A DNA stretch of 29,249 bases. Source: a virus. Of this stretch, positions 3,446-24,340 are shown in pieces. The stretch lies in the IMG/VR virus record IMGVR_UViG_3300020121_000216, positions 1-29,249 of that record; one strand, 5' to 3'. Within the stretch, counting starts at the first letter, position 1, and each line of letters begins with the position of its first letter. Under the pieces are notes generated by a model. It did no database searches. It worked only from the letters and a program-made list of their open reading frames with translations, and was not told where the DNA came from. The position numbers and the translations under genes were made by a program.

Positions 3446-5400
3446 AGCGCATCCTTGTAGATGAATCGGATCACTTCGTCCGGGTCCATGGTCGCCAACC
3501 AAGCTTCGCAATCGCGTACTCCGTAACTTGCAATCAACTTGCCGTCTACTAACGCCAATCCGGCGGCAAACTCAATCTGTCGATCGTGAAAAAAGAACGG
3601 CTGCGAGATCTTATCCACACCCCCATAAGGTTTGAAACTTACGAATCGATGCTGGTAATAGCGGTTGTGCGGTCGACCGGGAATGTGACGAGCTTCATGT
3701 ACGAGTGCCACCCAAGTGCGCGCGTCGAGCTGCACCACTTGAGACCCACCACTAATATGGTTGGCATCGAACGCAGGACGCTCCTGATAGGTGATCTCAC
3801 CAGACGGGTTTACCAACGTACCTAAACGATAGACAAACCGAAGTTGACCCTTCTCGACCCACGGCATCCAGTTCTTCTCATGCCGACGCTCTTCCGGCCG
3901 CATCGGATGCCAACCACAAACTTTGTTACCATCCAGAAACAAAAGCACCTGTTCGCACCAGCCTTCCTTGTTCTGCTCGCGCACGCAGGCGCTGGCCTGC
4001 AGCTGCCCGTCGACCTCGAACAGCCGCATGTCCTCAAGCCCGATCACCAGATGGTACTGGGCCGGCGGACGCTCCCACTGGATTCTGGTGCTGTCGATCG
4101 CCTTTAGCTGGTGATCCAAAGACACAAGATAATTATCAGTAGAAATAGGATTATCCCGATTGCAAGAACCTTGTAGTCCCCGTATTTCATAACAACCCTC
4201 TGCGGTGATGCTGTAATTTACCGCCCGCACAATCGCGAGCGGCTTGCCATTATGATTGATGATGGACGGATTGGTTAACACATAATCGTCGACGGTCGGA
4301 AAGCTGATCCGCTGTGGCTGGAACGCTACATGATCGCTCAATGGCTTGAGGTACCAATACAAATTGTTGCGCGCCTGCTCGCTGCCGTTGAGCGCCAACT
4401 CATTGCAAATCCTGGCCCCGCGCTCCCGCCTGACCGGAGCATAGTAGGCGCATATCGCGAATTCCTCTTTCAGGCCAGCATCATACACATAATTGTTGAC
4501 AAACAGCAGATCCTTGGGAGGTCGCACCGGCAGTCCAGGTTCGGAGAACAATAAAGAAGCATGGTTGTCTCCGCGCTCGCGAAAGTATTTGGCAAGATCG
4601 TACAGCGGCTCCATTCGCGAGGGCCGTAACTGGTAGGCCCCAAGCATTTCCCGGATGAATCCCTTACCGTCGCCGAGATGATTGAGACAGTGCGCGTAAC
4701 GCATTTGCGCATACCAGACTTCCTCGTCGAATCCTCCCAGCGCGGTGCGGATCTTGTAATGTTCCGCAGCCTTGTTCCATTTGCCGGAATCGTAATACGA
4801 CGACGCCAAATAGAAATGATAACGCTGAATCAATCCCGGCTTGGTTTCCGTCTTGAGCGCCGTCTCGAGGAGATTGATATCACGTTGGAATTTTTCTGGT
4901 CGGTTAGCGCCATCGGCGTGATCAATGAACTCTGCACCATCCAGGATTCCACCGCTCTCAATATCGAGATATTCGTGCGTAACACCGACATACCAGCCAA
5001 CGCTGCGGCGGCTGACCAGACGTCGATTATAGTACCCGAGGGCTCCGGCAGTTTGCTTGAGGTCATAGGACAGCCCTCCTGCGCCATTAAGCCAGTCCGG
5101 CCGATGCACCTGCAGTTCCATGTCAGCATCGGCCAACAACAGATAGTCCCACTCCAGCTTACTCTCGCGTGCCCGGCGCAGGGCCTCGTTACGTGCTTGC
5201 TCGAAATTCTCGAACGGCGCCCGGTGGATCTCGACCGGCAGCATCGCCTTGGCGAACATTCGCCGGATCAATTCCGGCGTGCCATCGGTCGATCCGGTAT
5301 CGACAACCACCGCGCCGTCGACATACGGCAACAGACTCTCGACGCAGCGATCGATGATCGCCGCCTCGTTCTTGACGATGGCGTTCCACAGCAGCTTCAC
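3442..5400 (-). CDS. Glycosyltransferase family 2 fused to a GH130-like beta-propeller
   Basis: A protein of 652 residues with three parts. Residues 1 to about 110 are a GT-A family 2 glycosyltransferase (WNAIVKNEAAI start, VVDTGSTDGT, and the DADME metal-binding motif). Residues of about 190-300 look like helical TPR-type repeats. Residues of about 340-650 resemble the five-bladed propeller of GH130-type phosphorylases and related enzymes (TNPSII, GLEDMRLFEV, and a late blade FAAGLALVDGKLIASYG). The start is GTG, two codons after an out-of-frame ATG that overlaps the collagen-like gene stop; GTG gives the normal GT2 beginning. It may build or transfer a glycan onto virion proteins. Confidence 0.8.
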   Translation of the reverse strand: MKLLWNAIVKNEAAIIDRCVESLLPYVDGAVVVDTGSTDGTPELIRRMFAKAMLPVEIHRAPFENFEQARNEALRRARESKLEWDYLLLADADMELQVHRPDWLNGAGGLSYDLKQTAGALGYYNRRLVSRRSVGWYVGVTHEYLDIESGGILDGAEFIDHADGANRPEKFQRDINLLETALKTETKPGLIQRYHFYLASSYYDSGKWNKAAEHYKIRTALGGFDEEVWYAQMRYAHCLNHLGDGKGFIREMLGAYQLRPSRMEPLYDLAKYFRERGDNHASLLFSEPGLPVRPPKDLLFVNNYVYDAGLKEEFAICAYYAPVRRERGARICNELALNGSEQARNNLYWYLKPLSDHVAFQPQRISFPTVDDYVLTNPSIINHNGKPLAIVRAVNYSITAEGCYEIRGLQGSCNRDNPISTDNYLVSLDHQLKAIDSTRIQWERPPAQYHLVIGLEDMRLFEVDGQLQASACVREQNKEGWCEQVLLFLDGNKVCGWHPMRPEERRHEKNWMPWVEKGQLRFVYRLGTLVNPSGEITYQERPAFDANHISGGSQVVQLDARTWVALVHEARHIPGRPHNRYYQHRFVSFKPYGGVDKISQPFFFHDRQIEFAAGLALVDGKLIASYGVRDCEAWLATMDPDEVIRFIYKDAL

Positions 5401-10770: not shown

Positions 10771-11007
10771 ATGGACATCAACAGTCTTACCGAGGACGAC
10801 CTCTATACTCTGCTCGCGTTGTTGAAGGACCGGGTGCCGAAGGTCATTGTCACGGTCGACGCTGACGGCAGGAACATAATTCACAGCCTCGACTGTCCGA
10901 TCGGGCAAAGTCAGGCGCGGGTAATCTACACCACCGACGAACCGATTCCGGTGACTAAATGCCTCTGCCTCGAGAATGCGGCAAATGCTCCCTCTGCTGC
11001 AAGCTGA
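10771..11007 (+). CDS. Small protein with a few conserved cysteines, function unknown
   Basis: A protein of 78 residues (MDINSLTEDDLYTLLALLKD start) with an acidic first helix, a beta-rich middle (VIVTVDADGRNIIH) and cysteines in LDCPIG and TKCLCLE. ATG at 10771 is preceded by CAGGGG six bases away, better than the far upstream starts in the same frame. Its last 49 bases overlap the next gene in another frame. Function is unknown; metal binding is possible. Confidence 0.6.
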   Translation: MDINSLTEDDLYTLLALLKDRVPKVIVTVDADGRNIIHSLDCPIGQSQARVIYTTDEPIPVTKCLCLENAANAPSAAS

Positions 11008-11381
11008 TGGGAGTGCCCGAGGTCAAAGAGGATTTCCAGTGGTGCCCGCACTGCATCAAGGGTGGTGGCGGCTGTGGCATTTACGGCACGCGGCCGACCC
11101 CGTGCCGGCTTTTCAAATGCGGCTGGTTGCAAGATCAACACATCCGGGAGCACTGGTTCCCGAAGACGGCCAAGATCATCATTGATTTCAAGCTGGATGG
11201 CGAAGACGCTTACGTGGTGTTCATCGTCGACCCCGACTATCCAACGCGGTGGCGCGAGGAACCGTGGTTCTCCGACATCAGGAAGCTGGCGCTGGAGGGG
11301 GTGACCAAAGGCAACCTACTCGGAGTCAACTGGACTACGGTCGTCTCGATCAAAGGTGAACGGTTCGTTGTCGGGCCGTAG
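10959..11381 (+). CDS. YkgJ-like cysteine-cluster protein
   Basis: A protein of 140 residues with the cysteine pattern of the YkgJ family (putative zinc or iron chelating domain): CGKCSLCCKL at residues 7-16, then CPHC, CGIYGTRPTPCRLFKCGW. These ligands could hold a metal or an iron-sulphur cluster. The C-terminal half is beta-rich and lacks cysteines. It starts inside the preceding small gene, without an obvious Shine-Dalgarno sequence, so it probably depends on coupling. It ends with TAG; the frame then stays open for about 60 codons, but these look non-coding. Function in phages is unknown. Confidence 0.75.
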   Translation: MPLPRECGKCSLCCKLMGVPEVKEDFQWCPHCIKGGGGCGIYGTRPTPCRLFKCGWLQDQHIREHWFPKTAKIIIDFKLDGEDAYVVFIVDPDYPTRWREEPWFSDIRKLALEGVTKGNLLGVNWTTVVSIKGERFVVGP

Positions 11382-16783: not shown

Positions 16784-16819
16784 TTGACGTCACTAGGGCC
16801 ATTATGTCCTAGTGACGTC
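16784..16819 (+). promoter_or_regulatory. Promoter-like element with extended operator site 7
   Basis: TTGACG (16784-16789) is followed by operator GGGCCATTATGTCCT (16796-16810). The operator core is inside a longer inverted repeat with arms GACGTCACTAGG (16786-16797) and CCTAGTGACGTC (16808-16819). The flanking arm sequence differs from that at 15185-15211 but is again self-complementary. Confidence 0.55.
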
Positions 16820-16849
16820 TACCGCAACCGCAAACCAAGGAGTCACCCA

Positions 16850-17128
16850 ATGTACACCCGGATCAATTTCAAATCAAAGAAAGAGTTGAAGGCCGCTGTC
16901 GACCTCTGGAACGCCTACCTCGCCAGCCCGCCCGATATGGTGGACGGCGTGCCGGTCCGCTCGAGCGCCAAGGTTCCCCAGGCCGTGCGCTACTTCCAGC
17001 CCGGTCCCTTCGGCGGCGCCGAACCGCGCGAGGGCATCATCTATCTGGAGGGCCCGCACTACCCGGAGCCGCACCGCTGGTACGCCCAAGCCGTGGCCGA
17101 GAACGGTGTGATCGTCAAGGTTAAGTAG
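16850..17128 (+). CDS. Small protein of unknown function with leader cassette
   Basis: A protein of 92 residues (MYTRINFKSKKELKAAVDLW start). It has a helix, then an extended segment (VPQAVRYFQPGPFGG) and a strand-rich end (GIIYLEGPHYPEPHRWYAQAVAENGVIVKV). No family is recognised. AACCAAGGAGTCA ends five bases before the ATG. It ends with TAG; a hairpin follows five bases later, which supports a real stop. Confidence 0.7.
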   Translation: MYTRINFKSKKELKAAVDLWNAYLASPPDMVDGVPVRSSAKVPQAVRYFQPGPFGGAEPREGIIYLEGPHYPEPHRWYAQAVAENGVIVKVK

Positions 17129-21092: not shown

Positions 21093-21302
21093 ATGAAGAG
21101 ACGTAAGAAGATTCAGATCCGTGCTGAGACCGAGAAGAAGCGCCAGAAGGTGCTTACACTCGCCAAGACGCGCGGCTCTGTCACCAACGCCCAGGCGAGA
21201 AAGGCCGGAGGATGGAAACAACCGTGGTACCACTTGACGGCCATGGCGAAAGCCGGCCAGCTAAAGCGCGTAAATCAGGACGACTGGCGTCCGAAAAAGT
21301 AA
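21093..21302 (+). CDS. Small basic DNA-binding-like protein
   Basis: A protein of 69 residues. The basic start (MKRRKKIQIRAETEKKRQKV) is followed by a helix-turn-helix-like unit (LTLAKTRGSVTNAQARKAGG, WYHLTAMAKAGQLKRV), which resembles winged-helix units in other phage proteins. It starts two bases after the preceding stop and ends inside the polymerase gene start region. Confidence 0.6.
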   Translation: MKRRKKIQIRAETEKKRQKVLTLAKTRGSVTNAQARKAGGWKQPWYHLTAMAKAGQLKRVNQDDWRPKK

Positions 21303-21823
21303 AATTTCGACGTTTCCTGTTCGTCGACTTCGAAACCTTTTATTCCACCGAGTACTCGCTGCGGCACATGTCCCCGCCAGAGTACATTCTTGATCCGCGC
21401 TATCAGACGTTGATGATGGCCGCCTATGAGCCGGCGTGGGACGCCCCCCGCATCATCATGCCAGCGGACATTCCTGACTTCCTGGCCCAATACAAACCTG
21501 AAGAAACCATCTGCTGCAGCCACAACGCGCTGTTCGACCTCTCGATTCTGGCGTGGCGCTACGGCTGGGTGGCCGGCCGGCTGCAGGATACGCTGGGCAT
21601 GGCGCGCGCGCTCAGATCCTTCAAATCGTACTCTTTGGGGTCGTGCCTCAAGGAGCTGTTCGGGGCCGATACCAAGGGCGGTACCGTCCACAAAGTCAAA
21701 GGCATGGACGCGGCAGCCATCAAACGCGCCGGGCTGTGGGGTGAGTTCCAGACCTATGCCCTCAATGACGTTCTGTCCTGCGCCCGCATCTATGCCAAGC
21801 TGGCACCCGAGTTCCCGCAATAG
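21212..21823 (+). CDS. DNA polymerase family A, N-terminal 3-prime-5-prime exonuclease part (ends at in-frame TAG)
   Basis: 203 residues holding the proofreading exonuclease domain: FVDFETFY (Exo I, D and E), CCSHNALFDLSIL (Exo II, N-x3-FD) and TYALNDVLSCARIY (Exo III, Y-x3-D). It stops at TAG (21821-21823), but the same frame continues directly with ERQIMDLVLRAAVQPV, which is normal polymerase sequence, so TAG interrupts one gene. The start at 21212 overlaps the preceding gene by 91 bases; GGAGG abuts this ATG, so GTG at 21224 is also possible. The two parts may be made separately, or joined by readthrough. Confidence 0.8.
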   Translation: METTVVPLDGHGESRPAKARKSGRLASEKVKFRRFLFVDFETFYSTEYSLRHMSPPEYILDPRYQTLMMAAYEPAWDAPRIIMPADIPDFLAQYKPEETICCSHNALFDLSILAWRYGWVAGRLQDTLGMARALRSFKSYSLGSCLKELFGADTKGGTVHKVKGMDAAAIKRAGLWGEFQTYALNDVLSCARIYAKLAPEFPQ

Positions 21824-21835
21824 GAACGCCAGATC

Positions 21836-23206
21836 ATGGATCTGGTGCTGCGGGCTGCCGTACAGCCGGTACTGGAGGCCAATGTCCCGCTGCTGGAGAG
21901 CCATCTGGAAGACCTGAGAGCCCACAAGGAGCGGCTGTTGTTCGAGTGCGGTTATGGCAAGGCGGCGCTGATGTCGACCATCCAGTTCGCCACCGCGCTC
22001 GAGGAGCTGGGAGTCGAGATCCCGCAAAAGCTATCGCCGGCCGGCAACATGATCCCGCCGTTCGCCAAGACCGACCCGTTCATGCAGGACCTGCTCGAGT
22101 ACGCCGGCTCGCCGGACGATGCCGTCAACTATCGGGTGCAGACCTTGGCAGCAGCCAGATTGTGCCACAAGAGCACGATCGAGGAGACCAGGGCAGAGCG
22201 GTTCGTCAACATCGCCTCATTGCCGTGGTCTAATGAATGCAAATATCCAGATTGCGACGGCGGTCCAGCAACTGGCTATTGTCATAATAAATGTCGTGAA
22301 CATCCTTCGCTGCTGCCGGTGCCGCTGCGCTATGGCGGCGCCCATACCCACCGCTTGAGCGGCGAGTGGTCGATGAATATGCAGAATCTGCCGCGCGACA
22401 AGGAGAAGTCCCGGTTGCGGCAGGCGCTGATGGCCCCACAAGGCTACCAGATCGTCACCGCCGACCTCGCCCAGATCGAGGCGCGCATCGTGGCCGTGCT
22501 GTGCGGACAAAATGACCTAGTGGAAGCTTTCGCGCGGAACGAGGATGTCTATGCCAAGTTCGCCTCGGTGGTGTTCCACCGCACCATTACCAAGGCCGAC
22601 AACCCGGTGGAGCGGTTTCTCGGTAAGACCAGCGTGCTGGGCCTCGGCTATGGCTGTGGCTACGAGCGGTTCTACGCCATGGTGGTGACGCAAGCCGCCC
22701 AGGCCGGCATCCCCTTGAGCGGGTTCGACAAAAACAAGGCCGCCGAGATCGTGCAAACCTACCGGTACCTGTACCGGAACATTTCCGACAGCTGGGGCAA
22801 ACTGGACTTCCTGCTGGACGCTTACATCAACAGCCAGAATGACCGGCAGAAGCGGCGGGGCTGGGGTCCGGTGACGTTCTCAAGCGGGCGCATCGAGCTG
22901 CCCAACCGCATGTTCTTGCGCTACAAATACAACGATCCGCATCTCTACGGCGCGCGGATCCTGGAGAACATTACCCAGGCGCTGGCGCGGATCGTGGTGA
23001 TGCAGGCGGCGTTGCGGCTGGCCGACAAGGGTTTGCGATTCGTTCTGCAGGCGCACGACGAGCTGGTTTTTGTCGTGATGGACGCCTTCGTGCCCGATGC
23101 CAAGGTCATCATCCATGAAGAAATGGTCCGAAAGCCAGTGTGGTTGCCCGGCCTGCCGCTTGCGGTGGAGATCGGATGCGGCCGTAACTACGGGGAGGCC
23201 AAGTAA
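21836..23206 (+). CDS. DNA polymerase family A, C-terminal polymerase part
   Basis: 456 residues from the first ATG after the TAG, in the same frame as the exonuclease part. Motif A is DLAQIEARIVA with the metal-binding Asp, motif B is RFLGKTSVLGLGYG with the O-helix Lys, and motif C is QAHDELVFVV with HDE. The fold is that of small phage polymerases. AGGA about ten bases before ATG could allow internal initiation, giving a split polymerase; alternatively TAG is read through and the full chain has 664 residues. No frameshift or other defect is seen, so it does not look like a decayed gene. Confidence 0.85.
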   Translation: MDLVLRAAVQPVLEANVPLLESHLEDLRAHKERLLFECGYGKAALMSTIQFATALEELGVEIPQKLSPAGNMIPPFAKTDPFMQDLLEYAGSPDDAVNYRVQTLAAARLCHKSTIEETRAERFVNIASLPWSNECKYPDCDGGPATGYCHNKCREHPSLLPVPLRYGGAHTHRLSGEWSMNMQNLPRDKEKSRLRQALMAPQGYQIVTADLAQIEARIVAVLCGQNDLVEAFARNEDVYAKFASVVFHRTITKADNPVERFLGKTSVLGLGYGCGYERFYAMVVTQAAQAGIPLSGFDKNKAAEIVQTYRYLYRNISDSWGKLDFLLDAYINSQNDRQKRRGWGPVTFSSGRIELPNRMFLRYKYNDPHLYGARILENITQALARIVVMQAALRLADKGLRFVLQAHDELVFVVMDAFVPDAKVIIHEEMVRKPVWLPGLPLAVEIGCGRNYGEAK

Positions 23207-23210
23207 GCTC

Positions 23211-23897
23211 ATGCCCTATAAAGTGTTCCGGCAATGTACGGTGACGATCGACGGCAAGCCGAAGCGAGGGGCAAAAATCATCTGCGGGAAGTGTTCGGCT
23301 GAAAAGACCGTCGCGCTCAATACCTCGCATGGGTACGGGGAGGACGACGACGTCGTCGAGCGCATGGTGGCGCAGAAATTCGAGAAACTGGGGTGGAGGG
23401 TAGGCAAGCAATTTCATCTGCATCAATGTCCCAAATGCAACGAATCCCTGATTGCCGAGATCAAAGCCTACAAGGAGCCCGGCAACATGGCCCAAGTTGT
23501 TGCGGAACTTCGCAAGGAGCCTGTCATGGACAACAAGGTCGTGCCAATCCAGCCCGTCGAGCCGCCTCGGGGCGAGCGTCCGATGTCCCGAGACGAACGC
23601 CGGCTGATCACCGAGGAGATGCTGGGTCTCTATCTCAATGAAACCGTCGGCTACAAGGAAGACTGGTCCGACGAAAAGGTATACAAGAAAATGGGGGTGC
23701 CACGGGTCTGGATCGCCCAGGTTCGCGATGAAGCCTTCGGGCCGCTGGATATCAACGAGCAATCCTACAAAGTAACCAGTGAGATCAAGGAATTAACCAA
23801 AGAGCTGACCACCGCGATGGGACAGGTGCAGTCCTTGATGGTCAAGGCTGATCTGTTGATGCAGCAACTCACCGATAGGTTAAGGAAACAGGGATGA
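23211..23897 (+). CDS. Zinc-binding protein of the replication operon
   Basis: A protein of 228 residues. The N-terminal third has IICGKCSAEKTV and HQCPKCNESLIAE, two C-x2-C knuckles likely to hold one zinc. The middle has PVEPPRGERPMSRDERRLI, then DEKVYKKMGVPRVWIAQVRD, a likely helix-turn-helix. The last 60 residues are a coiled-coil helix. It could be a DNA-binding replication accessory; this is inference. The ATG at 23211 follows GGGGAGG at 12 bases; the frame is open further upstream inside the polymerase gene. Confidence 0.65.
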   Translation: MPYKVFRQCTVTIDGKPKRGAKIICGKCSAEKTVALNTSHGYGEDDDVVERMVAQKFEKLGWRVGKQFHLHQCPKCNESLIAEIKAYKEPGNMAQVVAELRKEPVMDNKVVPIQPVEPPRGERPMSRDERRLITEEMLGLYLNETVGYKEDWSDEKVYKKMGVPRVWIAQVRDEAFGPLDINEQSYKVTSEIKELTKELTTAMGQVQSLMVKADLLMQQLTDRLRKQG

Positions 23898-24340
23898 CAG
23901 TCCACGTCTATATCGCCGGCCCGATGTCGTCGGTCGGCGGCAACTTCAATTTCCCGCTGTTCGACCGGGTCGCCGATCTGTTGCGGGCGCAGGGAGCCTA
24001 TGTCTTCAATCCGGCTGATCATGCCCGTAAGAATCTGGGCACGCTCGAGCAGATCATGAAGCTGGACAAGCGCGAGCTGCGTCATGCCCGTAAGGCGCTG
24101 ATGCTGGACGAGATGATCTGGATCCACAATTACGCTCAAGGTGTCGTGCTGCTGCCGGGTTGGGAGCGTTCGCCGGGCGCCAAAGCCGAACGTGAATGGG
24201 CGTTGGCGTTGGGGATTCCGATCCGTGAAATCAATACCACCCTGCTGCCGATCGAGCCGTTGCCGAAAGCTTGGGGCGGCAAATGGTTTCCCGATTTCAA
24301 GTCTATTCTTGACGACAGTTCCAAACAGGCAGATACCTAA
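23894..24340 (+). CDS. DUF4406-like nucleoside 2-deoxyribosyltransferase relative
   Basis: A protein of 148 residues with the DUF4406 layout: VYIAGPMSSVGGNFNFPLFD at the start (Gly-Pro-Met loop and N-F-P-x-F), a central MLDEMIWIHNYAQGVVLLPGW (acidic residues and D/E near the active site) and SPGAKAEREWALALGIPI (G-A-x-x-E). Relatives of nucleoside deoxyribosyltransferases act on nucleotides or bases, so it may help nucleotide salvage or base modification during replication. It overlaps the preceding gene by ATGA. Confidence 0.8.
   Translation: MTVHVYIAGPMSSVGGNFNFPLFDRVADLLRAQGAYVFNPADHARKNLGTLEQIMKLDKRELRHARKALMLDEMIWIHNYAQGVVLLPGWERSPGAKAEREWALALGIPIREINTTLLPIEPLPKAWGGKWFPDFKSILDDSSKQADT

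Follow-up and report, generated by a model that had tools for sequence, protein, structure and literature searches.

A single in-frame amber codon at the exonuclease–polymerase hinge of a Klenow-like phage DNA polymerase, probably recent or a consensus error, and candidate +1 frameshift sites in relatives

In-frame TAG codons in core genes have been described in phAss-1, where TAG is read as Gln (PMC10607447), and in crAss-like phages (PMC9523058). Dozens of ORFs contain TAG in phages of this kind, which use genetic code 15 and often encode suppressor tRNAs (PMC10607447, PMC9523058); phAss-1 has TAG in 41 ORFs, together with three suppressor tRNAs (PMC10607447). Natural family A polymerases encoded in two ORFs are found in the OM43 phages MEP401 and MEP402, and intron-type splits of phage polymerases are known (PMC10580990). 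Influenza PA-X has its +1 site at UUU_CGU; the proposed mechanism is slippage of tRNA-Phe from UUU onto UUC next to a slowly decoded Arg codon (PMC3498833).

The window studied here, that is, the whole stretch of DNA that was analysed, is a linear IMG/VR virus fragment of 29,249 bases. Its frame 21212–23206 is interrupted only by a TAG (codon 204), and the next stop is the TAA at 23204–23206. A first-pass annotation had placed this single TAG, in the same frame, between the exonuclease and the polymerase of a phage DNA polymerase, which translation confirms. The left piece matches PF01612 (7e-5, just below the cutoff) and phrog_17; the right piece matches PF00476 and, again, phrog_17. The claim that the exonuclease and polymerase motifs are intact also holds, as all catalytic positions are kept: D9 and E11 of ExoI, D79 of ExoII, and Y152 and D156 of ExoIII on the exonuclease side, and D388 of motif A, K442 of motif B, and H585 and D586 of motif C on the polymerase side. 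The features are collected in Table 1.

Table 1. Features of the polymerase gene and control genes in the window, and candidate +1 sites in relatives (locus names precede the coordinates of the latter).
Feature	Coordinates	Strand	Basis
3'-5' exonuclease domain, predicted family A (PolA/Klenow-like) phage DNA polymerase	21302–21820	+	PF01612, phrog_17, ExoI–III
In-frame TAG, residue 174	21821–21823	+	Translation; relatives' codons; model secondary structure
AGGA ... ATG, candidate reinitiation signal, judged coincidental from the relatives	21822–21838	+	12 nt past stop
Polymerase domain (thumb/fingers/palm), TAA end	21824–23206	+	PF00476, E 1e-29; motifs A, B, C
Cys-rich loop insertion CKYPDC...CHNKC	22233–22310	+	Alignment; GC 0.45; pLDDT <50 at residues 312–332
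Control gene ending at TAG where relatives end	10959–11381	+	139/140 aligns with 158/159 of G001 (TAG); 138 with 144/146 of G004 (TGA)
Second control gene, TAG at homologues' exact C-terminus	16784–17128	+	114/114 aligns with 109/109 of G004 and 173/173 of G003 (both TGA)
Candidate +1 site	L012:1264–1294	-	ExoI pattern
Candidate +1 site	L113:2837–2867	+	ExoI pattern
Candidate +1 site	L114:4361–4391	-	ExoI pattern
Candidate +1 site	L142:1681–1711	+	ExoI pattern
Candidate +1 site	L143:9808–9838	-	ExoI pattern
Candidate +1 site	L144:2029–2059	+	ExoI pattern

The polypeptide had been read as a continuous family A polymerase across the TAG, and this is borne out. Over its full length, the read-through product can be aligned to polymerases that are single chains in relatives (68–69% identity to L001), and its exonuclease is 61–68% identical to those of the polymerases of three related IMG/VR phages, G001, G003, and G004. 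Its predicted structure is one confident Klenow-like fold (pLDDT 91, pTM 0.89), for which the best match among solved structures is the Bst DNA polymerase I large fragment (Z 27.7 over 528 residues, 3.6 Å). By sequence and by model, the gene encodes a family A DNA polymerase with a 3'-5' exonuclease, Klenow-like in its organization. The model places the TAG between the last exonuclease helix, residues 146–170, and the first polymerase helix, residues 173–187, in the first turn of the latter. The Cys-rich insertion lies in a polymerase-domain loop of variable length, is missing from the aligned relatives, and has a lower GC content; it is possibly a zinc knuckle or a recent insertion.

As to the limits of the gene, the proposed extent of 21212–23206 stands insofar as the frame is open but for the TAG, but its start is doubtful, because ATG 21212, the first in-frame ATG, lies 30 codons inside a conserved upstream gene (21093–21302) and homologous polymerases begin near 21300. 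No usual start codon is present near the expected N-terminus in the segment 21212–21305. The upstream gene ends in G_AAA_AAG_TAA, and a -1 shift at this sequence would lead into the polymerase frame. The polymerase frame of G004 lacks ATG, GTG, and TTG upstream of ExoI (L014:4250–4412), so that initiation there may depend on a rare start codon or on recoding. There is also a local swap of gene order between the window (21093–24340) and G001 (60487–63649): the polymerase precedes the gene at 23211–23897 in the window and follows its homologue in G001, with the same neighbours on both flanks.

Homologous polymerases were compared at the TAG column, as the first-pass annotation had suggested. The comparison covers 86 relatives, namely 80 from a profile scan (the best 80 of 594) and six others, a set that possibly does not cover records very near the window; in none of the 86 is the aligned polymerase interrupted by an in-frame stop. 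The column is hypervariable, with 29 different codons among the 86; the residues include Ser, Glu, Ala, Gln, Val, and Lys. Glu is found in the three nearest relatives, encoded by GAA, GAA, and GAG, and one G-to-T change turns GAG into TAG. Such single steps to TAG are open to 127 of the 634 codons of the window gene. The exact TAG sequence context has no match elsewhere in IMG/VR, with the same proviso about records very near the window, and a search of genome contigs gave no homologue. The first-pass annotation had named a stop carried only by single decayed copies as a finding that would count against its reading; as far as could be tested, this is the case, the TAG at the hinge being carried by one genome only.

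With G004 as outgroup, the branches leading to the window and to G001 have 17 and 23 unique changes, respectively, in the exonuclease and 30 and 36 in the polymerase, a branch-rate pattern like that of the portal, terminase, helicase, and other genes. The window branch thus has no relative-rate excess, which argues against long-standing decay of the gene, and the stop would be recent, an error, or harmless.

We consider it likely that an isolated and very recent nonsense substitution, or a consensus error of the metagenomic contig, put the TAG into an otherwise ordinary single-chain polymerase. The ancestral gene would have encoded an ordinary single-chain Klenow-like phage polymerase in which a sense codon became TAG, for example, GAG to TAG, or was miscalled in the consensus, and the change would have hit a hypervariable codon, tolerant of substitution, at the domain hinge. 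Should the TAG be real, ribosomes would stop after the exonuclease, and some may restart at ATG 21836, 12 nt downstream, to give a polymerase without proofreading. The following points count against a lesion or an error: the stop is exactly at the domain hinge, a distant relative is split there, and an SD-like AGGA and an ATG come directly after it. A functional TAG would mean that proofreading and synthesis are uncoupled, or that amber is recoded at a single site with no suppressor tRNA; for the window, the comparison with relatives argues against such a feature.

The split that had been proposed, with an internal start at 21836, is possible but unsupported for this phage. It would amount to a functional two-subunit polymerase, the exonuclease being released at the TAG and the polymerase domain made from ATG 21836 by coupled reinitiation, and we regard it as unlikely. 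The hinge is where a functional split is expected, the exonuclease and polymerase halves both look intact, and the AGGA, which is indeed present ten bases before the ATG as had been claimed, and the ATG are well placed. However, none of the 86 closer relatives is split there, and an SD-like tetramer with a start-like codon occurs at the same place in 13 of the 86, all uninterrupted. Because these stop-free relatives show the same pair, the apparent internal start is, judged from the alignment, a coincidental by-product of conserved Glu-Glu-Arg and Met codons. Further, a polymerase begun at 21836 would lose E175, which is invariant in all 40 aligned polymerases, and would start inside the first polymerase helix, and a stable 9-bp hairpin has the ATG in its loop. 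Reinitiation 12 nt past a stop is physically plausible, and the Klenow polymerase domain retains DNA synthesis when separated from the exonuclease; a phage with the TAG therefore need not be dead.

The idea of a split is nonetheless sound for the family, since the polymerase of the distant relative L143 is truly split at the same exonuclease/polymerase hinge (reverse complement 3510–3590). Its exonuclease ends at a TGA, just before which a 27-codon ORF starts (GTG, with AAGGA upstream). This short ORF ends in TTATGA, whose ATG is the start of the polymerase ORF, so that the two share an ATGA overlap; the polymerase ORF is preceded by its own SD, AAGGGGGAG. This arrangement is favourable to a two-subunit reading of the window gene as a precedent, but the L143 polymerase ORF begins before the FPxxE motif, unlike a product begun at 21836. 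The L143 split is designed-looking in its sequence, unlike the interruption in the window. About seven of the 104 polymerases sampled (L144, L202, L220, L235, L248, L262, and L264) are interrupted further downstream, mostly by 0.4–1 kb. The extra DNA is near residues 310–340 or near residue 420 and is probably of the intron or homing-element type.

Partial read-through or suppression of the TAG, which would yield some full-length polymerase beside free exonuclease, is improbable. The position tolerates almost any residue, so that any suppressor amino acid would do, and the 9-bp hairpin begins a few nt past the stop. However, its fold z-score is only -1.8 against shuffles, and the hairpin is, from the conservation of the residues, explained by the sequence that encodes Gln-Ile-Met-Asp-Leu; as a read-through signal, it was rejected on both counts. 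An Rfam search of the window gave nothing. No second gene has an in-frame TAG, the polymerase being the only interrupted gene among the homology-supported genes of the window. Finally, ARAGORN found no tRNA genes, suppressors included, in the window, which is a fragment, or in the relatives G001, G004, and G003 (68, 67, and 23 kb, respectively, about 158 kb together).

A further proposal makes the TAG a genuine control point maintained by selection. Recoding would set the supply of exonuclease-bearing polymerase in this family, by a +1 shift at UUU_CGA in relatives and, in the window, by the amber, which would give free exonuclease plus a reinitiated or read-through polymerase. For the window, we give this little credence. 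The sites in relatives make a stronger case than the window TAG, as follows. In six relatives (L012, a locus of G003, and L113, L114, L142, L143, and L144), the start codon is in one frame and the rest of the gene in the +1 frame. A good SD precedes the start codon as a rule, being clear in most of the six. The frame changes exactly at GAY-UUU-C-GAR, which encodes the ExoI motif D-F-E-T, with D-F read before the shift and E-T after it. In the L143 gene, the hinge split and the ExoI +1 site occur together.

The pattern GAYTTTCGARACNTDBTDBNNNNNNGANTWY was found at six IMG/VR loci, and all six are polymerases. A matched control pattern, with one extra A a codon later, hit five loci, none of them a polymerase (0/5), and a closely related pattern in GTDB genomes hit 27 loci, again without a polymerase (0/27). 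We suggest that UUU_CGA is a candidate site of programmed +1 frameshifting in these six polymerases, which seem to need such a shift in their first exonuclease motif; recurrent indels are the alternative. In the open-access literature, to which the search was confined (subscription journals being outside its scope), no description of a +1 shift in phage polymerases was found.

The first-pass annotation had also raised reassignment of TAG (code 15). Two other genes of the window, the control genes of Table 1, end at TAG where their homologues end, and read-through of their stops would append 60 and 101 residues, respectively, past the homologues' ends. Because of these two homologue-conserved ends, TAG is, as far as the gene ends tell, a normal terminator in this phage and not a sense codon. 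Despite the precedent of crAss-like and other phages, a phage-wide code 15 can be set aside as most improbable, given these TAG terminators and the single in-frame TAG, with no tRNA found, where phAss-1 has dozens of such genes.

Several described systems resemble this locus in part. The code-15 phages likewise have in-frame TAG in core genes, but they have it in dozens of genes and with suppressor tRNAs, whereas the window uses TAG as a stop. The polymerases of MEP401 and MEP402 are likewise in two pieces, but their split falls within the polymerase domain, the two parts being separated by an ORF, and that arrangement, possibly of the intron type, is conserved in the group (PMC10580990). The Klenow fragment and the Bst DNA polymerase I large fragment have the same fold and motifs as the window polymerase and differ in being single chains, at 17% identity. 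Much closer are the polymerases of the IMG/VR phages G001 (IMGVR_UViG_3300046796_000243), G004, and G003, which are 65–69% identical to that of the window and are accompanied by related terminase, portal, and helicase genes; these differ in having a Glu codon at the TAG column and no stop at the hinge. The closest named relative is the DNA polymerase I of Rhizobium phage RHph_TM3_14A (QIG67523.1), 41–44% identical and with the same exonuclease and polymerase in a single chain, which differs in being encoded by an uninterrupted ORF of 636 codons with Met at the TAG column.
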